Below, in pieces: positions 34,343-54,331 of a stretch of 64,000 nt of DNA. Origin of the DNA: Gordonia asplenii (GTDB lineage Bacteria; Actinomycetota; Actinomycetes; Mycobacteriales; Mycobacteriaceae); assembly GCF_012933505.1 (NCBI RefSeq), contig NZ_JABBNB010000010.1:1-64000 (forward strand). Direction: 5' to 3'. The notes under the pieces were generated by a model that made no database searches, was not told where the DNA came from, and was given only the letters and a program-made list of their open reading frames with translations. The position numbers and the translations under genes are program-made. Within the stretch, counting starts at the first letter, position 1. Each line of letters opens with the position of its first letter.

Positions 34343-34367
34343 GTTTGACCGCCGTCGCCACGGGTAC
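34343..34367 (+). promoter_or_regulatory. SigB/SigF-type promoter for the methyltransferase operon
   Basis: GTTT (34343-34346), 15-bp spacer, GGGTAC (34362-34367). This fits the GTTT-N15-17-GGGTAT consensus of general-stress sigma factors. The first gene of the operon starts 39 bp downstream. Confidence 0.6.
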
Positions 34368-34405
34368 TCGTCATCGACTCGAACGTCCGTACCCATCGGA
34401 GGTGA

Positions 34406-34723
34406 ATGACAATGCGTTTCGCCAAAGCTCTCGGACTATGGGGCTACATCACACTCCTCGCGGCCATAGCACTCGTCGTGTTATGGATCGGTATGGCCGC
34501 CAGCGACCACCCGGATACGATGTGGGCGGGGACCGCCGCGGCCGTCGTACTGATTGTCAGCCTGGTGTCGCTGACCGCCAGTAGGCGGATGCTAGTACAC
34601 CAGGATCCGGATAGCCGCCCGGAGCAAGACCCGCTACAGCCCGCGGTCACCGACGAGGAAGCGGCGGAGTACGAAGCTCATTACCACGGACGACACATCC
34701 GCGACGATGACACTGACCACTGA
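34406..34723 (+). CDS. Small two-helix membrane protein
   Basis: 105 aa from ATG 34406 (the sixth base on is a second ATG). Two transmembrane helices (YITLLAAIALVVLWIGMAAS and WAGTAAAVVLIVSLVSLTAS) are followed by a hydrophilic, acidic tail ending HGRHIRDDDTDH. It resembles small unnamed membrane proteins of stress islands. First gene after a stress-type promoter; the next gene starts 17 bp inside it, so it is co-translated with the methyltransferase. Confidence 0.7.
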   Translation: MTMRFAKALGLWGYITLLAAIALVVLWIGMAASDHPDTMWAGTAAAVVLIVSLVSLTASRRMLVHQDPDSRPEQDPLQPAVTDEEAAEYEAHYHGRHIRDDDTDH

Positions 34724-35393
34724 ATCATCCTGGGCGTCAACTGATTCGGTCTACCGCCCACAGGACGACAGTTACCTGCTGATCGACGCGCTGCGCACGC
34801 GCTCGGTTATCGGCCGCGACGTGGCTGACCTGTGTACCGGCTCCGGAGTGATCGCTGTGCATGCGGCACAGCTCGGCGCACGGAAGGTGACCGCAGTCGA
34901 CTCGTCGGCAGCCGCGGTCAGGAGTGTGTGTGACCTGATCCGTCGACATGGCCTGCAGGGTCGCATCGACGTCGTGCACGACGACGTTGCGACGTTCGGA
35001 CGCTGCGAGTCGTTCGATCTGATCACCTGCAACCCGCCCTACGTGCCGACACCCGGGACCGCCGATGCGGCGCTGCATCCTCCCGGGCCGAACCACTGCT
35101 GGGATGCCGGCCCGTGCGGGCGCGACGTACTCGACATCGTGTGCTTGACGACGCCGGCCTTGCTGCGTCCTGGTGGGAGCGTGCTGATCGTGCAATCGGA
35201 GTTCGCGGACATCCCCGCGACGCTCGACGCACTGTCGGGCGCGGGGCTGCGCTCCCGCGTCGTCGCCGAGGCCGAGATCCCGTTCGGCCCAGTGCTTTCA
35301 GCGCGAGCCGCTTGGCTGGAAGAAACCGGACTGCTCGACGTCGGGCGTCGGCGTGAGGTGATCGCGGTGGTCTGCGCGGAGCGCGAGCGATGA
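34707..35393 (+). CDS. HemK2/MTQ2-type methyltransferase
   Basis: 228 aa class I SAM-dependent methyltransferase. VYRPQDDSYLLIDAL opens it as in the HemK2/MTQ2 group; SAM-binding VADLCTGSGVIAVHAA; and the catalytic NPPY motif in LITCNPPYVPTPG, typical of enzymes that methylate planar nitrogen such as a glutamine amide. Housekeeping PrmC has an extra N-terminal domain that is absent here. Eukaryotic relatives modify release factors; the bacterial substrate is unknown. It overlaps the membrane-protein gene and is coupled by a 4-bp overlap to the CDGSH gene. Confidence 0.85.
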   Translation: MTLTTESSWASTDSVYRPQDDSYLLIDALRTRSVIGRDVADLCTGSGVIAVHAAQLGARKVTAVDSSAAAVRSVCDLIRRHGLQGRIDVVHDDVATFGRCESFDLITCNPPYVPTPGTADAALHPPGPNHCWDAGPCGRDVLDIVCLTTPALLRPGGSVLIVQSEFADIPATLDALSGAGLRSRVVAEAEIPFGPVLSARAAWLEETGLLDVGRRREVIAVVCAERER

Positions 35394-35578
35394 GCGAGCC
35401 GGTAGCCGTTCGAATGGTACGCGGCGGTCCCGTACTCGTGCGTGGCCCGGTGACCATCGAGTTGGCGGACGGGTCGACGGTGACGTCAGAGAGATTCCAG
35501 GTCGCCCTATGCGCATGCGGCCGCAGCGGGATATATCCGCTGTGCGACACGAGTCATCGGTGCAGGAAACGCCGTTAG
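35390..35578 (+). CDS. CDGSH-type iron-sulfur protein
   Basis: 62 aa. The 2Fe-2S motif is complete: C-x-C-x2 at CACGRSG, then YPLCDTSH, i.e. three cysteines and one histidine as in mitoNEET-like CDGSH domains. The first 40 residues (VRMVRGGPVLVRGPVTIELA) are a beta-rich segment typical of bacterial members. It is probably a small cytosolic electron-transfer or cluster-donor protein. ATG overlaps the methyltransferase stop; the stop overlaps that of the convergent diiron-oxidase gene. Confidence 0.92.
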   Translation: MSEPVAVRMVRGGPVLVRGPVTIELADGSTVTSERFQVALCACGRSGIYPLCDTSHRCRKRR

Positions 35579-36570
35579 TGATGGTCTAGCGTGATTGCGC
35601 GTCGTCCGTGCACCCACGCTCCACGCACATGGTCGGCCAACATGTCTTCAGCGAACTCGAAGCAGCCGATACCGAAGGAGACGTCCGATTCCAGGTCGGG
35701 TTCGTCCTTGAGCAGCGCACCGACGACGTCGTTGCGCATGACATGCTCGTGAACAGCATCGGCCTCCACGTGCTCGCGGTAGAACAGTCGGCAGGCTTGC
35801 GGTGCGTCGAGACGCTCCAAACCACTGAGCAGCCGCTGGGCCCCGGGCGGGGATGTGATCTCGGTGGCTGCCAGATGACCCACGACCGCTCCACGCAGAC
35901 GACGGTGAAGCCCCAGATACGAGATGACGTTCGACACCAGCAACGCGGGGACCGGTGCGACGTCGAGATAGCCGAGATAGTCCGAGCGTAAACGCGCCGC
36001 GGTCAGGAGATCGGCGAAGAGCTTCTGATGCATGTGCTCGGCGATCCCAGCGCCGTACTCATCAAACTCCACCGCGATCAGTGCCGCCTTGGGAGCACCG
36101 CTGAGGCGGGGAATCACCCACGCGTGCGGGTCGGCCTCCTTGAGCTGGTAGATCGAGCGCAGAGCGAAGTACTCGCGGTACTGCTGCCAGGTTCCCTCGG
36201 TCTCCAGATGTCGCGTGCTACTCGGTTCGTCGGCGATGGCATCGGAATAGGTGAGGTCGGTCAACGCGTCCATCGCACCGCGCGGATATTGCGGCACGTC
36301 AGCCCGTAGAGCTCGCTCGAATGCCTGCTCGAGCCCCCTCCGGAAGCCGAGGATCTGCGGGCGCCACTCCCAGTCGGGATCGACGCCGGCGAATCCGCGG
36401 TAGAAGAGTTCATAACAGATCAGGAGCGTGAGTTGGAGATCGTCGCCGTACGGATCGTCGGACGGCATGAGCGTCGGAAGGCGCAATGGCCGTTCGGGCG
36501 TCGTCGCCAGGCGTTCGACGACGTATTCGGACAGCCTTCCGCGCGGTCGCGGTAATCGTGGTGCCTTCAT
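35575..36570 (-). CDS. Haem-oxygenase-like diiron (HDO) redox enzyme family protein
   Basis: 331 aa. The helical core carries the metal-ligand pattern of iron-containing redox enzymes: EFDEYGAGIAEHMHQKLFADL near residue 165 (Glu and His) and FYREHVEADAVHEHVMRND near residue 270 (His-x3-Asp-x3-His). Such HDOs activate oxygen with a labile diiron centre; known members desaturate or cleave small molecules or modify peptides. Substrate unknown. ATG 36570 has AGGAA upstream. Convergent and overlapping by 4 bp with the CDGSH gene, and downstream of the PRC-barrel gene, whose promoter it probably shares. Confidence 0.82.
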   Translation of the reverse strand: MKAPRLPRPRGRLSEYVVERLATTPERPLRLPTLMPSDDPYGDDLQLTLLICYELFYRGFAGVDPDWEWRPQILGFRRGLEQAFERALRADVPQYPRGAMDALTDLTYSDAIADEPSSTRHLETEGTWQQYREYFALRSIYQLKEADPHAWVIPRLSGAPKAALIAVEFDEYGAGIAEHMHQKLFADLLTAARLRSDYLGYLDVAPVPALLVSNVISYLGLHRRLRGAVVGHLAATEITSPPGAQRLLSGLERLDAPQACRLFYREHVEADAVHEHVMRNDVVGALLKDEPDLESDVSFGIGCFEFAEDMLADHVRGAWVHGRRAITLDHH

Positions 36571-36606
36571 GTACGTTCCTTTCCTGCGGCGCCATCGAGT
36601 GCGGCG

Positions 36607-36837
36607 TCATGACGGCGGAATCCGTTGCGCAAGTTCAGAATCCCGCGTCTGGATCGAAGTCGACGACGTCGGTCCACTCGACCGGTGTCGAACCGCGCCG
36701 ACGCGTTCCCCGTCGATCTCCACCTCATCGACAACGCCGACGGCTTGGCCGTCCACATCGACGATCTGCCGGTCGAACAGGTGCGCGCGCAGGTCGACCC
36801 GACGGGTGCGGGCACGACTGTCTCCGAGAGAACTCAT
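36607..36837 (-). CDS. Small PRC-barrel-like protein
   Basis: 76 aa. Residues 12-50 (VDLRAHLFDRQIVDVDGQAV, then GVVDEVEIDGERV) match the first strands of a PRC-barrel, a domain of photosystem and RNA-maturation proteins also found in stress-induced actinobacterial proteins. After GERVGAVRH the sequence loses family character, so the gene may be truncated or frameshifted. ATG 36837 lies only about 10 bp from the -10 of a stress-type promoter, implying a nearly leaderless mRNA. The HDO gene follows 36 bp downstream. Confidence 0.55.
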   Translation of the reverse strand: MSSLGDSRARTRRVDLRAHLFDRQIVDVDGQAVGVVDEVEIDGERVGAVRHRSSGPTSSTSIQTRDSELAQRIPPS

Positions 36838-36846
36838 ACGTGCCGA

Positions 36847-36872
36847 CTACCCGCCGTGAACGCCGTCGAAAC
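36847..36872 (-). promoter_or_regulatory. SigB/SigF-type promoter for PRC/HDO genes
   Basis: Read on the minus strand: GTTT (36872-36869), 16-bp spacer, GGGTAG (36852-36847). It stands back to back with the hemerythrin promoter, only 11 bp away. Confidence 0.6.
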
Positions 36873-36936: not shown

Positions 36937-37521
36937 ATGGACCCACTCGCCGTGCTCGCGGAGGAGCACAAAACCATCTCATCGCTTGTGTCGACGATCG
37001 AAACGCTGCCCGACGATCTGTTCGGAGGCGAGACCCGGTCCGATGTCGCGACAGCCCTGGTCATGGTGACCTCTGCTCACGAAGCTGTGGAGGAACAATG
37101 GTTCTGGCCGGTTGTTCGGCAGCTCGTCGAGCATGGCAAGTCTCTCGCCGGCCACGCTGTCGACCAAGAGACCGAACTCAAGACACTTCTGGGGCTCGTG
37201 GCGGACACCGTGCCGGGTACGTCGAGTTTCGCCGATGCCATGGCGCGCTTCGCCGACGCGGTCGTCGAACACATGTCGTACGAGGAGAGCGTCGTATGGC
37301 CTGCGGTGCGAGCATCGATGTCCGCGCCTGACCTCGATGCACTCTTCGATGCGATGAGGGTCGCCGCGCACATGGCTCCGACGCGGCCCCACGCCTGGTT
37401 GCCGCCCGGCGGATTTGCACAGAATTCTATCGGTCTAGCTGTGGCTTTGACTGACAAGCTGCGCGATCGTGTCACCGGCCGCGGGCAGATCATGGCCGAT
37501 CACGTCGCCCTCACCCGATAG
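36937..37521 (+). CDS. Hemerythrin HHE-domain protein
   Basis: 194 aa. The four-helix hemerythrin-like fold is visible through its diiron ligands: [31 protein letters not shown], and [16 protein letters not shown] (E/H pairs), followed by [10 protein letters not shown]. Related mycobacterial proteins affect peroxide sensitivity and sigma-factor output. ATG 36937 is backed by GAAAGGA; the longer upstream frame overlaps the promoter. It stands alone between the PRC gene and a broken dehydrogenase. Confidence 0.88.
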
Positions 37522-37598
37522 CCCGATCCCGATGCCTTGGCGAACAGACGCACGCAGCTCGTGACCGACGGGGTGTCGAGAGCTCAGCGATCGGCGTC

Positions 37599-38879
37599 GT
37601 GATCATCGCTCGTGACCGAGCGGCCGAACTCGCGAAACCTGCATGCGCTGGCGCACAGTCCGTTCCAGGATTTCCGGGGCGACGGTCTGTTACTGCGATT
37701 CACTGTCGATGCGGCACCTTCCGTCGCCGCGACGTACGCGTCGACGACGTTCCCGAGCCGAAGATCGAGCAACCATCCGACGCGATTGTGCGCGTCACCT
37801 CGACCAACATCTGCGGCTCCGACCTTCACCTGTACGTGGTGCTGACTCCGTTCATGTCGCCCGGTGATGTACTGGGGCACGAGGCGATCGGCTTCGTCGA
37901 AGAGGTCGGATCGCATGCGGGCGATCTCAGTGTCGGCGACCGAGTGGTTGTGCCGTTTCAATCTCCTGCGGGCATTGCTTCATGTGCGATCAACACCTGT
38001 ACACCCAGTGCGAGACCACTCAGGTGCGCGCTCAGGGGACTGGCGCCGCACTCTTCGGCTATTCAAGCCTGTACGGTTCGATCCCCGGCGGCCAAGCTGA
38101 GTACCTTCGCGTGCCGCAGGCTCAGTTCACTCATATCAAGGTTCCCGACGGCCCGCCCGACAGCCGATTCATCTACCTGTCCGATGCGCTGCCGACCGCG
38201 TGGCAGGCCGTCGAGTACGCACAGGTACCGCCCGGTGGCAGCGTCACCGTGCTGGGGCTCGGGCCGATCGGCGACATGGCGACGAGAATCGCTGCGCACC
38301 ATGGCCTTCGGGTCATCGGCGTCGACCGGGTACCCGAGCGCCTCGAACGAGTAGCAGACCACGGTATCGAGGTCATCGATCAATCCGCGGTCAGCGACGT
38401 CGCCGGGGAGATCCGGGACCGCACCTACGGGCGCGGCACGGACGCGGTGATCGACGCCGTGGGGATGGAGGCACACGGCTCCCCTGTCGCCGGCGGGATG
38501 CAACGTGCGACGGGACTTCTCCCCGACGCTCTCGCCGAACGGTTGACCCGGCTGGCCGGTGTCGATCGGCTGGCGGCGCTCCGGCTGGCCATCGACATCG
38601 TCCGCCGGGGCGGAACGGTCTCTCTTTCGGGTGTCTACGGCGGTGCGGCGGATCCACCGCCGATGATGACGCTGTTCGACAAGCAGATTCAGCTGCGGAT
38701 GGGTCAGGCCAACGTGAAACGATGGGTACCGCAGATCCGGCCACTACTCACCGATGCCGACCCGCTAGGCGTGGATTCGTTTGCCTCGCATGAGCTTTCG
38801 CTCGACATAGCGCCGCAGGCTTACGATCGTTTCCAACGCAAGGTCGACGGCGTGGTCAAGGTGATGCTGAAAACCCTGA
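37599..38879 (+). pseudogene. Zinc-dependent alcohol dehydrogenase, multiply frameshifted
   Basis: The protein is a class III-like Zn-ADH of about 390 aa: [19 protein letters not shown] (catalytic Zn Cys), [12 protein letters not shown], structural Zn cysteines in [33 protein letters not shown] (NAD fold) and LSGVYGGAADPPPMMTLFDK. The CGHC segment is reached only by losing one base near 37963, in CCGTTTCAATCTCC. The expected C-terminal end VMLKP-stop needs removal of one A from AAAA at 38870-38873. The N-terminus has extra residues (CGTFRRR) and no good start. Three separate faults suggest real decay or poor local sequence. Confidence 0.75.
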
Positions 38880-38929
38880 CTCAGCCGGCCTGTTCCTCCG
38901 ACCGCGCATACATCGAATTCGGCCCGCGA

Positions 38930-38955
38930 GTTTGGGCCGCGTCGTCACCGGGTAT
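38930..38955 (+). promoter_or_regulatory. Consensus SigB/SigF-type promoter for a small ORF
   Basis: GTTT (38930-38933), 16-bp spacer, GGGTAT (38950-38955). This is the best match in the window. An AAAGGA ribosome-binding site (about 38982) and ATG 38994 follow. Confidence 0.65.
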
Positions 38956-38993
38956 TCAGCGCGGACTAACCATCCACGAGCAAAGGACTCGCC

Positions 38994-39173
38994 ATGATCA
39001 TCGAACAGGGAGGAACCCTCCTACTCAGCGACCACGATGGATCCGATATCGCGTACGTTGTGCGGGCAATCCGGCACTTCCCCATCGATTTCGTCGAACT
39101 GGAACCATGCGATGGCGGACCGACGCAGACGATGTCGATGTCGGCGATCGAGCAGGCGGCGCGACCGGGCTGA
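38994..39173 (+). CDS. Small stress-regulated protein, unknown
   Basis: 59 aa, MIIEQGGTLLLSDHDGSDIA..., acidic and without transmembrane or cysteine features. The case for a real gene is its AAAGGA ribosome-binding site at good spacing, strong third-base GC, and a perfect stress-type promoter 38 bp upstream. I know no family. It lies after the broken dehydrogenase and is transcribed independently of it. Confidence 0.55.
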   Translation: MIIEQGGTLLLSDHDGSDIAYVVRAIRHFPIDFVELEPCDGGPTQTMSMSAIEQAARPG

Positions 39174-39360
39174 GCCCGGCACGGACGGACTTCGACGTCC
39201 AACTCTCCTCTCGCCGTTGATGACTTGTCCGGATACGGGACTTCCTTGTAAACGCCCGGCTCCGGTCAGGATAAGCAGGGGGATAACCGCGTTGAGCCGT
39301 GCCGTGCCCAGGTCTTTGACCGTCCAGCCGTCCTCGACTGCGCCTGATGATTCGTACGGG

Positions 39361-39519
39361 TCATCGCGGCGCCGAACACTCGTCGGCTATCTTTCGCAGT
39401 CGATCCAGCGTCGGCTGAGGATCCTGCCCGAGGTAGGCCGTGACCGCATTGCCCACCATGTCGTCGCGTAGCACCATCAGTTGGGCGCGAGCGAGCCGAC
39501 CCTTGTCAAACGCGCGCAG
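39361..39519 (-). pseudogene. Possible C-terminal coding fragment
   Basis: An open frame of 52 codons without a normal start (TGA upstream at 39520-39522) reads FDKGRLARAQLMVLRDDMVG and ends RLRKIADECSAPR. The amino-acid pattern is protein-like and lies directly behind the small protein gene at 39477-39710, with which it overlaps in another frame. It may be the real C-terminus of that protein after a frameshift near 39515, or the remnant of a separate gene. Confidence 0.3.
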
Positions 39520-39710
39520 TCACCCTTTCGGCTATCTGATTGCGCTCGCCGGAAGAGTTCGACGACTTCGCCGTCCCCGTCCCGCTGAGCATCGGCGATG
39601 AACGTTTCCATCCGCAGGGCGTTGGTCAAACACTCCTCGGTGTAGCGAATGAGGTTGTATGTCTTGTCGCGCGTGCCGGTCAGGTCGCCGGTCTCGGCAG
39701 TGGTCATCAT
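39477..39710 (-). CDS. Small conserved stress-island protein
   Basis: 77 aa from ATG 39710 (a second ATG follows at once; GGAGAA upstream). TRDKTYNLIRYTEECLTNAL, RMETFIADAQRDGDGEVVEL and FRRAQSDSRKG form a short helical unit that I have seen in actinobacterial proteins of unknown role, usually ending soon after the SRKG. The final 14 residues here look frame-shifted. A near-consensus stress promoter lies 74 bp upstream. Confidence 0.55.
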   Translation of the reverse strand: MMTTAETGDLTGTRDKTYNLIRYTEECLTNALRMETFIADAQRDGDGEVVELFRRAQSDSRKGDCARLTRVGSLAPN

Positions 39711-39783
39711 TTCTCCTTCTCGTCGGCGCCGGAGGGTGTCTTCGACGCTGTGACTGTTGGGCGGCGCAGCCGCCACAGGAGGA

Positions 39784-39809
39784 ATTGCCACGGTCGGGCC
39801 ACGCCAAAC
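39784..39809 (-). promoter_or_regulatory. Possible SigB/SigF-type promoter
   Basis: Minus strand: GTTT (39809-39806), 16-bp spacer, GGCAAT (39789-39784). One or two mismatches from GGGTAT/GGGAAT, so weaker than the others. It faces the small protein gene at 39710. Confidence 0.4.
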
Positions 39810-39833
39810 ATGCGACGCGACCCGACCTCGCAA

Positions 39834-40265
39834 CTAGGCTGGCGCGGTGCCCCCGACGGCATCGAAAGCCATTGGCAGCCAGTCGAATACCGGCACCAAG
39901 CGAGTGATACCGGTTCGTCGTAGCGGACGAGCGACGGCTCGTCCGCCGGCTACCGCTATCGCTCCCCCGGAGTTGGAAACGGTTCGTGCCGCCGCGTGTA
40001 AAGCAGCGATACCGTCGACGCCCAAGAAGTCGACATCGGACATGTCCAGGACGAGTCGCCCGGTGCCCGCAGCGCAGGCAGCCGCAAGATGCCCGGTGAA
40101 ATCGTCGATGCTGGCGGCATCGACCGATCCGGTAATGGTCGCCTGCGTGACCCCTTCGACATCAGCGACCACCGCCTCGCACTCGCCGTCACGGACCTCT
40201 GTGATGGGTACGGCGCGTTCAGGAATACGGTTTTGTACGGGTTCTGCGGAGAGAAAGTTTGACAC
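39834..40265 (-). CDS. STAS-domain protein (anti-sigma factor antagonist type)
   Basis: 143 aa from GTG 40265. The STAS core is residues 30-130: ATITGSVDAASIDDFTGHLA, then GRLVLDMSDVDFLGVDGIAAL, where the Ser/Asp phosphorylation position of SpoIIAA/RsbV proteins would lie. Here DFLGVDG has Val-Asp rather than Ser, so classical serine phosphorylation is doubtful. Probably a partner of an HATPase anti-sigma factor. Upstream lies a 548-bp gap. Confidence 0.75.
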   Translation of the reverse strand: MSNFLSAEPVQNRIPERAVPITEVRDGECEAVVADVEGVTQATITGSVDAASIDDFTGHLAAACAAGTGRLVLDMSDVDFLGVDGIAALHAAARTVSNSGGAIAVAGGRAVARPLRRTGITRLVPVFDWLPMAFDAVGGTAPA

Positions 40266-40424
40266 GGTAAATCTCCCGTTGGGCAGCGGCCGAGCCGCCA
40301 GGACGGCTGTTGTGTCAACCGGTGTCTCAAGGCTAGCAATCGGTTGGATCGTTCGCTAGGCAAACGATGTTTCGTCACGACCCCCGATCGGTACTTCGCG
40401 AAGACATACCGATGAGGGAGTCGC

Positions 40425-40607
40425 GTGAGTGAAATTGACCGAGACGATGCCATCGCGTCCCTGGGGCTAGTGTCGCGTCTGGTTTTCCGGATCGATGCGA
40501 TGGCAGTGTTGGGGCGCGTGAACGCGCTACCGCAGGGCGAACGCGGCGATGGCGCGGTCCAGACGCGCGTCGACACGCTGGTAGCCAAGGGTAGAACGAT
40601 TCGTTGA
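40425..40607 (+). CDS. Possible small ORF, unknown
   Basis: 60 aa from GTG 40425 (VSEIDRDDAIASLGLVSRLV...). Support: AGGGAG ribosome-binding site, a weak stress-type promoter 31 bp upstream and even codon bias. Against: no family resemblance and a basic tail. It may be a fragment of a larger decayed regulator. Confidence 0.3.
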   Translation: MSEIDRDDAIASLGLVSRLVFRIDAMAVLGRVNALPQGERGDGAVQTRVDTLVAKGRTIR

Positions 40608-40725
40608 TACCACTGGTGCGCAAGAGACGCGAATCCCTCGCCAATTGCGCCCCGACAAGAGCGGCAACGGCGCCTGCGACCGTATAGTCGCGACAATCCG
40701 CTAGCAGGCGCCAAATCATCGAAGT

Positions 40726-40751
40726 GTTTTGCGACGCCGCGTCGGGGGTAC
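40726..40751 (+). promoter_or_regulatory. SigB/SigF-type promoter for the SDR gene
   Basis: GTTT (40726-40729), 16-bp spacer, GGGTAC (40746-40751). The SDR start codon follows 62 bp downstream. Confidence 0.6.
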
Positions 40752-40812
40752 GCGAGAGAACAATGCGCAATCAAACGGGCGCATCGACACCGACCCGGAA
40801 GCGAGCAACGGC

Positions 40813-41667
40813 ATGATCCAACCGCAACAAGGAATCACCCCCTTCCCCGGTAACACCGAGGAGATGCCCGAACAGCCACGCGATGAGATGCGCGACTACG
40901 TCGGGCGCGACCTTCTGCCGAGCAAACGAGCCCTCGTCACCGGCGGTGACTCCGGCATCGGCCGTGCTGTCGCAATCGCGTTCGCGAAAGAGGGCGCCGA
41001 CGTCGCCATCGCGTATCTCGACGAACGCGAAGACGACGACGCCCACCGGACCCGGGCGCTCGTCGAAGAGTGCGGTCGGCGGTGCTTTCTGTACCGGACC
41101 GACCTGGCCGAGGCCACGAACTGCACCGCGACGGTCAACCAGGCGATCCACGATCTCGGCGGCCTCGATGTGCTGGTCAATAACGTGGCCTTCCAGTCGC
41201 CGGTCGAACAGTTCGACGACATCACCCCTGAGCAGTGGTCGCACACCTTCGCGGTGAACATCGACAGCTACTTCCACGTGACCGCTGCGGCAGTGCCACA
41301 TATGGAACGGGGATCGTCGATCATCAACACGGGATCGATCAACGGGTTGCGGGGCAATGCCAAGCTCATCGACTACTCAGCAACGAAAGGCGCTGTCACG
41401 GCACTCACGTATTCACTGGCTCAAGCGTTCGTCGACGCCGGCATTCGCGTGAACTGCGTTGCGCCAGGACCAGTTTGGACGCCGCTCATCCCGTCGACGA
41501 TGCCTTCCGCGTCGGTTGACGGATTCGGCGAGCAGGCACCCTTCGGGCGCAGCGCCCAGCCCGACGAGATCGCACCGTCGTATGTGTTCTTCGCGTCGGA
41601 AATGCTGTCGTCCTATTACTCGGGCCAGGTGCTCGCGCCGGTCGGCGGAGAGATCGTGCCGGGCTGA
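40813..41667 (+). CDS. SDR oxidoreductase, YdaD/general-stress-protein-39 type
   Basis: 284 aa. The N-terminal extension (QGITPFPGNTEEMPEQPRDE) is characteristic of the stress-induced SDRs such as B. subtilis YdaD. Cofactor motif ALVTGGDSGIGRAVAIAF, NNVAFQ, SIINTGSINGLRG, active-site YSATKGA and CVAPGPVWTPLIP follow. It is probably NADPH-linked; substrate unknown. Preceded by a good stress-type promoter and followed by the ThDP oxidase gene, a pairing that also exists among B. subtilis SigB targets (YdaD, YdaP). Confidence 0.88.
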   Translation: MIQPQQGITPFPGNTEEMPEQPRDEMRDYVGRDLLPSKRALVTGGDSGIGRAVAIAFAKEGADVAIAYLDEREDDDAHRTRALVEECGRRCFLYRTDLAEATNCTATVNQAIHDLGGLDVLVNNVAFQSPVEQFDDITPEQWSHTFAVNIDSYFHVTAAAVPHMERGSSIINTGSINGLRGNAKLIDYSATKGAVTALTYSLAQAFVDAGIRVNCVAPGPVWTPLIPSTMPSASVDGFGEQAPFGRSAQPDEIAPSYVFFASEMLSSYYSGQVLAPVGGEIVPG

Positions 41668-54073: not shown

Positions 54074-54331
54074 ATGCTCACCATTGGCACCCACCTCGAC
54101 ACACTCACCGCGGGACGCCGTGTCCGCTATCGGATCGCAGCGATCCGTCGAGCACCGTTCAGCTACGTCGAGCTCGAACCGGTCCTCGGCGGACCGCGGC
54201 GCCAGCTTCCCCTGCACATCGCTGAACGCATACTCCGCGCCACCGACACCAGCACGATGCTCAACGCTGAGAGGGCGTCGACGGGGCCCGTGCCGGCCCC
54301 ACGTGCCGCACGGCGGGCTACGAAGCGATGA
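54074..54331 (+). CDS. Small hypothetical protein
   Basis: 85 aa, ATG 54074 with AAGGAG upstream. Begins MLTIGTHLDTLTAGRRVRYR and is basic with an alanine/arginine-rich C-terminus; a small beta-barrel-like start is possible. Overlaps the next gene by 4 bp (ATGA), so it heads a four-gene run of small proteins (54074-55291). No family recognised. Confidence 0.6.
   Translation: MLTIGTHLDTLTAGRRVRYRIAAIRRAPFSYVELEPVLGGPRRQLPLHIAERILRATDTSTMLNAERASTGPVPAPRAARRATKR

Follow-up and report, generated by a model that had tools for sequence, protein, structure and literature searches.

Within the first 64,000 nucleotides of Gordonia asplenii contig NZ_JABBNB010000010.1 (assembly GCF_012933505.1), the window analyzed here, a compact locus at positions 34,343 to 36,872 brings together genes for a haem-oxygenase-like diiron oxidase (HDO), a CDGSH-type 2Fe-2S protein and a HemK2/MTQ2-type S-adenosylmethionine-dependent methyltransferase (MTase). 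As judged by sequence comparison across genomes, the deeply conserved unit is the pair of HDO and CDGSH genes, which stay together although gene order and strand change between loci; the MTase has been added to it in particular lineages. We suggest, tentatively and with a probability of about 40%, that the locus encodes a stress-induced oxidation module in which the CDGSH protein feeds electrons to an HDO oxygenase whose nearest relatives are N-oxygenases, and in which the product is subsequently tailored.

Linkage of HDO and CDGSH genes

The locus was compared with an order-level sample of 121 genomes, including that of G. asplenii itself, and a phylum-level sample of 149 genomes. In the order sample, CDGSH genes are present in 63 genomes and PF14518 (HDO) genes in 80, and 61 of the 70 CDGSH loci (58 of the 63 CDGSH-bearing genomes) have an HDO gene within 3 kb. 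Fifty of these 61 pairs are convergent, nine are on the same strand and two are divergent; eight of the nine unlinked CDGSH loci are on contigs without an HDO, and the ninth has one far off. Viewed from the HDO side, 61 of the 64 best matches (at least 137 bits) have a CDGSH gene within 3 kb, as against one of 37 weaker matches, whose coordinates mark it as the second part of a strong HDO match in two pieces; these counts cover the 101 of 117 HDO matches that were typed, 16 weak ones below 50 bits being excluded, and the HDO of genome G045 is split in two pieces. Among the 23 best matches to the HemK2 model (TIGR00537), the only ones entered, 21 lie within 400 nt of a CDGSH gene. The phylum sample contains 25 HDO loci from outside the family, 15 of them with a CDGSH gene within 3 kb, a tally that treats two fragments in genome G520 as one locus and excludes 11 matches of 31 bits or less. 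Because the genomes are related, none of these linkage counts represents a set of independent events.

In a control test, CDGSH genes were found in 64 of 70 HDO loci and in none of 40 control stretches, drawn from 20 of the genomes; MTase and HDO genes were likewise each found in 0/40. A reading of the window made from its sequence alone had allowed that the three genes might co-occur by chance; the figures from the order (61/70), from outside the family (15/25) and from the controls (0/40) instead establish conserved synteny. For the three families taken together the outcome is mixed, as the HDO and CDGSH genes form the conserved part and the MTase belongs to one of two HDO lineages.

These lineages are apparent in a tree of 66 HDOs, which divides into clade A (32 members) and clade B (34 members), both with 100/100 support (locus L072, the same stretch as L042, was omitted from the typing, the tree and the neighbor counts). 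All 27 typed CDGSH neighbors in clade A are of the CDG type and all 33 in clade B are CDTSH, with five members of clade A and one of clade B lacking a typed CDGSH neighbor. A HemK2-type MTase lies within 400 nt of the CDGSH gene in 28/34 clade B loci and 0/32 clade A loci; L091, of clade A, has one 2.3 kb away. One genome, G081, holds an HDO–CDGSH pair of each type.

It is improbable that the genes belong independently to a stress regulon and are found in one island only through a common sigma factor. Such islands do also carry genes for STAS, anti-sigma-type kinase, CsbD and sigma proteins, but these other stress genes vary, whereas the linkage of CDGSH to HDO (within 3 kb at 61 of 70 loci) persists through inversion and reordering, and the subtypes co-segregate. 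An HDO gene without either companion is seen on a Gordonia polyisoprenivorans plasmid (L106:5597-6637), where it is matched in two pieces (annotated as hypothetical and as an iron-containing redox enzyme) and no CDGSH or MTase gene was detected within 6 kb.

Genes and promoters of the Gordonia locus

The locus consists of two facing arms, with the following features.

34343-34366 (+): SigF/SigB-type motif GTTT-N15-GGGTA of the rightward arm, from a motif scan
34406-34723 (+): open reading frame (ORF) for a small membrane protein with two hydrophobic stretches, by inspection; no family above cut-off
34707-35393 (+): HemK2/MTQ2-type MTase with an NPPY motif (TIGR00537)
35390-35578 (+): CDGSH-type 2Fe-2S protein, variant CDTSH (PF09360)
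35575-36570 (-): HDO with E145, E171, H181, H267, D271 and H274 (PF14518)
36607-36837 (-): small PRC-barrel-like protein, first gene of the HDO arm; Pfam match below cut-off
36848-36872 (-): SigF/SigB-type motif GTTT-N16-GGGTA of the leftward arm, from a motif scan

The membrane protein and MTase ORFs overlap by 17 nt, the MTase stop and CDGSH start by 4 nt (ATGA), and the stops of the CDGSH and HDO genes, on opposite strands, by 4 bp; the PRC-like ORF ends 36 nt ahead of the HDO start. All parts of this arrangement are where the sequence-only reading had placed them, and its three family calls are borne out by scores above cut-off: 167 bits for the HDO (PF14518, cut-off 28.9), 63 bits for the CDGSH protein (PF09360, cut-off 29.5) and, narrowly, 87.9 bits for the MTase (TIGR00537, cut-off 87). 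Its descriptions of the outer genes hold in part. The 'two-helix membrane protein' has its hydrophobic stretches, but it matches no family above cut-off and has homologues in its own genus only (three loci including the window among 71 HDO loci; L032, L034). The 'PRC-barrel' gene scores 16.8 bits against the Pfam PRC model, below the cut-off of 21.2, but its profile finds clear homologues in seven other loci, all mycobacterial.

In the HDO, E145, E171, H181, H267, D271 and H274 are invariant in 39 of 39 aligned sequences, giving three histidine and three carboxylate ligand positions; these align with SznF residues E189, E215, H225, H311, D315 and H318, which we take to be the metal ligands of that enzyme. 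The metal ligands, whose absence had been considered, are thus retained, and from its sequence we take the protein to be a putative O2-activating diiron enzyme. Position 178, aligned with SznF D222, is glutamate in the window and glutamate or aspartate in 26/39, and a role for it as an extra ligand would be a guess; in SznF the extra ligand (3H/4C type) is given as glutamate in passages of a 2026 review of HDOs (PMC13108848). An AlphaFold model (pLDDT 93.5) has the haem-oxygenase-like helical fold, and its best solved matches are HrmI, SznF and RohS, all N-oxygenases, followed by FlcD and CADD. The cluster ligands of the CDGSH protein (C41, C43, C52 and H56) are similarly invariant in 39/39, 23 of these sequences being CDTSH and 16 CDG.

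The MTase is more restricted in its distribution. TIGR00537 is matched above cut-off in 16 of the 121 genomes of the order; the G. asplenii genome has three further, weaker matches, and 25 of 36 other genomes of its genus have the MTase at 45% identity or more. Among plasmid records matched by the MTase, 16 of 29 are from Rhodococcus. The NPPY motif and an N-terminal VYxPxxD are kept in 20/22 MTases. The exceptions, L063 (7930-8819) and L064 (4588-6600), both of clade A, have near the HDO/CDGSH pair a different methyltransferase, with DPPY and 23-24% identity, perhaps recruited independently. Human HEMK2/N6AMT1 structures are the top matches of both the MTase profile and its structure model, and the HEMK2 loop (NPPYV..P and W-x-G/A-G-x-x-G-R) is retained.

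Retention of this loop would suit a protein-modification role, in which a translation or stress protein would be methylated by the MTase at glutamine (or lysine) and hydroxylation of a protein residue would fall to the HDO; eukaryotic eRF1, for comparison, carries both kinds of modification. Six genomes of one family (G028, G038, G047, G056, G063 and G091) do have a release-factor-like gene (baeRF_family2) no more than 3 kb from the HDO, but the loci examined (L059, L060 and L062) belong to the HDO lineage without MTase, and neither G. asplenii nor G088, which has the full trio, has a match. In L059 and L060 this gene is next but one to the HDO, with a thiamine pyrophosphate (TPP) enzyme between, and in L062 it directly adjoins it; the label comes from Pfam in L060 and from clustering in L059 and L062. 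A release-factor-like protein as the general MTase substrate was rejected because PF18844 has no match in G. asplenii, G081, G060, G067 or G088; in four of these genomes the MTase, CDGSH and HDO genes occur together (in G067 the HDO is on another contig). Moreover, passages of the HDO review name as HDO substrates either small molecules or one of the enzyme's own residues (PMC13108848). We regard protein modification as quite unlikely.

The proposal that each arm begins with a stress-type promoter is upheld by the motifs at 34343-34366 (+) and 36848-36872 (-). GTTT-N14-17-GGGTA occurs six times in the window, as against a mean of 0.25 in 100 shuffles, none of which reached six. Across loci, 17 of 38 HDO genes and 9 of 23 MTase genes have a strict SigF motif no more than 200 nt away, compared with a frequency of 2.0% among 200-nt stretches from the same loci, the MTase figure being a likely lower bound because several MTase starts are probably set too early (for example in L034, L045, L047, L050, L052 and L054) and because the window's own motifs precede other genes; L071, lacking upstream sequence, was excluded. 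In the named mycobacterial loci (L073-L078) the motif is present on both arms in 6/6.

These loci have very probable counterparts in the published SigF regulon of Mycobacterium smegmatis. MSMEG_1771, 1772 and 1773 are listed there, in that order, as 'methylase, putative' and two conserved hypotheticals, with sigF mutant fold-changes (exponential/stationary) of -6.17/-5.69, -5.91/-6.43 and -5.98/-4.09, and with SigF motifs 29, 696 and 11 nt ahead (PMC4694148); microarray values and promoter strings for the three are also given in a second report (PMC5445863). In M. fortunisiensis (L042, assigned through its identity with L072) the motifs precede the MTase by 32 nt and the HDO by 13 nt, and the 667-nt step from MSMEG_1771 to 1772 fits one MTase gene, the MTase and CDGSH starts of L042 being 674 nt apart. 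A 32-base promoter string from PMC5445863 had no match in 396 genomes of the genus, and a contig scan with the M. fortunisiensis MTase returned nine loci, none of them from M. smegmatis. Judged by gene order, motif distances and spacing, MSMEG_1771-1773 are very probably the M. smegmatis counterparts of the window genes, and SigF control of this type of locus has very probably been published already, with the proteins unnamed.

A possible oxidation module and its neighbors

We propose that SigF would switch on both arms in stationary phase or under oxidative stress, and that the CDGSH protein may then act as a dedicated electron donor reducing the diiron center of the HDO. The HDO would activate O2 and oxidize a small, probably amino-acid-derived nitrogen substrate, and in the lineage of the window the MTase would N-methylate an amide or amine of that substrate or of its product. 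A tailoring or supply role could fall to a glycosyltransferase in some of the other lineages and to a YbdK carboxylate-amine ligase in some; the product may be a protective or signaling metabolite. Gene linkage and the co-segregation of types suggest the electron-donor and tailoring steps, and N-oxygenation is suggested by the nearest structures (HrmI, SznF and RohS) and weakly also by YbdK and dimethylargininase neighbors; SznF is described as acting on N-methylarginine (PMC13108848). It is a rather doubtful extension of this proposal that a widespread actinobacterial stress system uses CDGSH as the dedicated redox partner of an HDO and makes an N-oxidized protective metabolite, methyl-capped in mycobacteria and their kin and glycosylated in some others. 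The sequence-only reading had described an oxygenase, a carrier and a methyltransferase as the parts of a modification pathway; families, promoters, linkage and ligands have held up, and the pathway itself we infer.

Several observations weigh against the proposed module. Identity between the HDO and the N-oxygenases, at 18-22%, is too low to settle the type of reaction. Adjacency is not universal, since 10 of the 25 HDO loci from outside the family lack a CDGSH gene within 3 kb. Six of the 34 clade B loci have no MTase beside the CDGSH gene (in two of them, L053 and L041, the genome has an MTase elsewhere, and L071 is on a 3.5-kb contig). The MTase also occurs with no HDO or CDGSH gene within about 6 kb in Rhodococcoides kyotonense (L080), and a HemK2/MTQ2 MTase with a long extension is found on a Rhodococcus plasmid (L103:6016-7113) with neither gene within 6 kb. 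Finally, YbdK and the glycosyltransferase are present at a minority of loci, the latter at none of the 17 HDO loci that come from control genomes.

The wider neighborhood was examined by comparing 70 HDO loci with the 40 controls, a test that is uncorrected for multiple comparisons, sets controls from 20 genomes against HDO loci from more genomes, and favors the cases in that its profiles were built from the HDO loci themselves. Commoner near the HDO are genes for STAS (18 vs 1), ANTAR (17 vs 0), sigma (13 vs 0), CsbD (12 vs 0), anti-sigma-type kinase (12 vs 1), YbdK (10 vs 0), a GT2-like glycosyltransferase (9 vs 0) and Mn-catalase (8 vs 0, p=0.023). Differences are not significant for alcohol dehydrogenase (ADH; 9 vs 1, p=0.064), a Rieske-type oxidoreductase (9 vs 1, p=0.064), hemerythrin (5 vs 0, p=0.099), ATP-grasp (4 vs 0, p=0.16) and the TPP enzyme (3 vs 0, p=0.25), and short-chain dehydrogenases (SDR) are not enriched (10/70 vs 9/40). 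When the comparison is restricted to the 17 HDO loci from genomes that also supplied controls, STAS (6), YbdK (6), Rieske-type oxidoreductase (4), sigma (3), Mn-catalase (3), hemerythrin (3) and ATP-grasp (3) reach p<0.05; anti-sigma-type kinase (3, p=0.075), TPP (2, p=0.085), ADH (0) and SDR (3) do not, and ANTAR (1), CsbD (0) and GT2 (0) are not enriched.

The GT2-like protein, which by inspection has a hydrophobic C-terminal part, is encoded no more than 6 kb from the HDO at nine of 71 loci, which all belong to clade A; its gene lies mostly between the HDO and CDGSH genes or directly beside them. These loci (L065, L067, L081, L087, L088, L093, L095, L097 and L098) are without a HemK2 MTase. 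It scores above a Pfam cut-off in one of four proteins scanned and above an NCBIfam cut-off in none of three, and in the order sample 6 of 13 good matches (at least 220 bits) lie beside an HDO, with none in G. asplenii. At 10 of 71 loci a YbdK gene lies within 6 kb of the HDO. A Kitasatospora plasmid (L102:3893-7951) carries YbdK, dimethylargininase and HDO genes in that order, then CDGSH and HemK2 MTase genes facing them, and on a Streptomyces plasmid MTase, CDGSH and HDO genes in a row are flanked on both sides by a SigB/SigF sigma gene within 4 kb.

Such neighbors as Mn-catalase (8/70 vs 0/40, p=0.023), hemerythrin (5/70 vs 0/40, p=0.099), sigma, STAS and CsbD are in keeping with the main alternative, in which the locus gives DtpC-like protection from oxidative stress: the CDGSH-reduced HDO would remove peroxide or O2, or store iron safely, with no metabolite involved, and the MTase would be a separate stress gene. 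DtpC of Acinetobacter is itself an HDO that limits H2O2 and requires E143, H153 and H232 for desiccation survival (PMC13232832), and the spacing of E143 and H153 equals that of E171 and H181 in the window HDO. An M. smegmatis sigF mutant is H2O2-sensitive, but the abstract of that study links this to carotenoid loss (PMC4694148). Protection also leaves unexplained the closeness of the MTase, the GT2 and YbdK companions and the split that sets apart the MTase-linked CDGSH type, and we think it unlikely, if the strongest of the alternatives.

Small ORFs at 38994 and 36607 had been put forward as possible substrate genes, which would make the locus a pathway for a ribosomally synthesized and post-translationally modified peptide (RiPP) with a small precursor nearby. 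The MTase model does also resemble AerE, a RiPP N-methyltransferase, and the 59-aa ORF (38994-39173) has its own promoter motif at 38930, but this ORF is matched in only 1 of 60 other genomes and was rejected as a precursor for that reason; the ORF at 36607 is the PRC-like protein. Among protein clusters present in at least 4 of 41 loci, only CDGSH is typically shorter than 100 aa, and no conserved small ORF or precursor peptide gene was found there among ORFs of at least 40 aa, with a coding-bias filter that can miss short genes. A RiPP pathway is highly improbable. The 59-aa ORF has a weak paralogue (36% identity) at 54107-54232 in the window.

The locus adjoins a stress-type island (36937-41667) with genes for hemerythrin, a zinc alcohol dehydrogenase, a STAS-type protein (39834-40265, -) and an SDR, the last three labeled by inspection and profile matches, and with further SigF motifs at 38930 and 40726. 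The alcohol dehydrogenase, which follows the hemerythrin gene (37599-39220), appears by inspection to be frameshifted, with its N-terminal part in one frame (37599-38354) and its C-terminal part in another (37982-39220).

Relation to known systems

The protein families are known and the regulon is very probably published; what our searches did not find elsewhere is the pairing of HDO and CDGSH across the phylum, with its two clades and their partners. The suggestion of an undescribed pathway therefore stands for the pairing and not for the regulation, given the very probable earlier listing of MSMEG_1771-1773. No CDGSH-type redox partner of an HDO turned up in the literature searches made, and no work on the pair was recognized by title or the start of an abstract, in searches that lay outside most subscription journals and whose CDGSH matches were ferroptosis reviews and similar. 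The 2026 HDO review names no biological electron donor in the passages available; its text gave no matches for ferredoxin, reductant, electron donor, ascorbate or CDGSH, and three for 'reductase', one of them ribonucleotide reductase (PMC13108848). The conserved CDGSH neighbor is a testable candidate for the electron donor of an HDO. If the proposed module is correct, HDOs, known mainly from natural-product clusters, would gain a place in how mycobacteria and soil actinomycetes respond to stress, and three SigF-regulon genes listed as 'methylase, putative' and 'conserved hypothetical' would be accounted for.

Among characterized HDOs, HrmI, SznF (central domain) and RohS share the fold of the window protein, with TM-scores of 0.63-0.72 by query length and sequence profile matches at E values of 1e-15 to 1e-17. 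They differ in that identity is only 18-22% and the window HDO has no cupin domain; their genes sit in natural-product clusters, and that of the window HDO sits in a stress regulon with a CDGSH neighbor. The window CDGSH protein shares the motif C-x-C-x2-S-x3-P-x-C-D-x-x-H with mitoNEET-type proteins but, in common with the MTase-linked type in general (23/39), has threonine in place of glycine (CDTSH). The MTase has in common with HEMK2/MTQ2 (N6AMT1) the VY-x-P-x-x-D and NPPY motifs and the best match in the PDB by both sequence and fold, and differs in being bacterial. DtpC of A. baumannii resembles the window HDO in its link to oxidative stress and its E-x9-H spacing but is co-transcribed with katE, and the words CDGSH and methyltransferase do not occur in the text of that report (PMC13232832).

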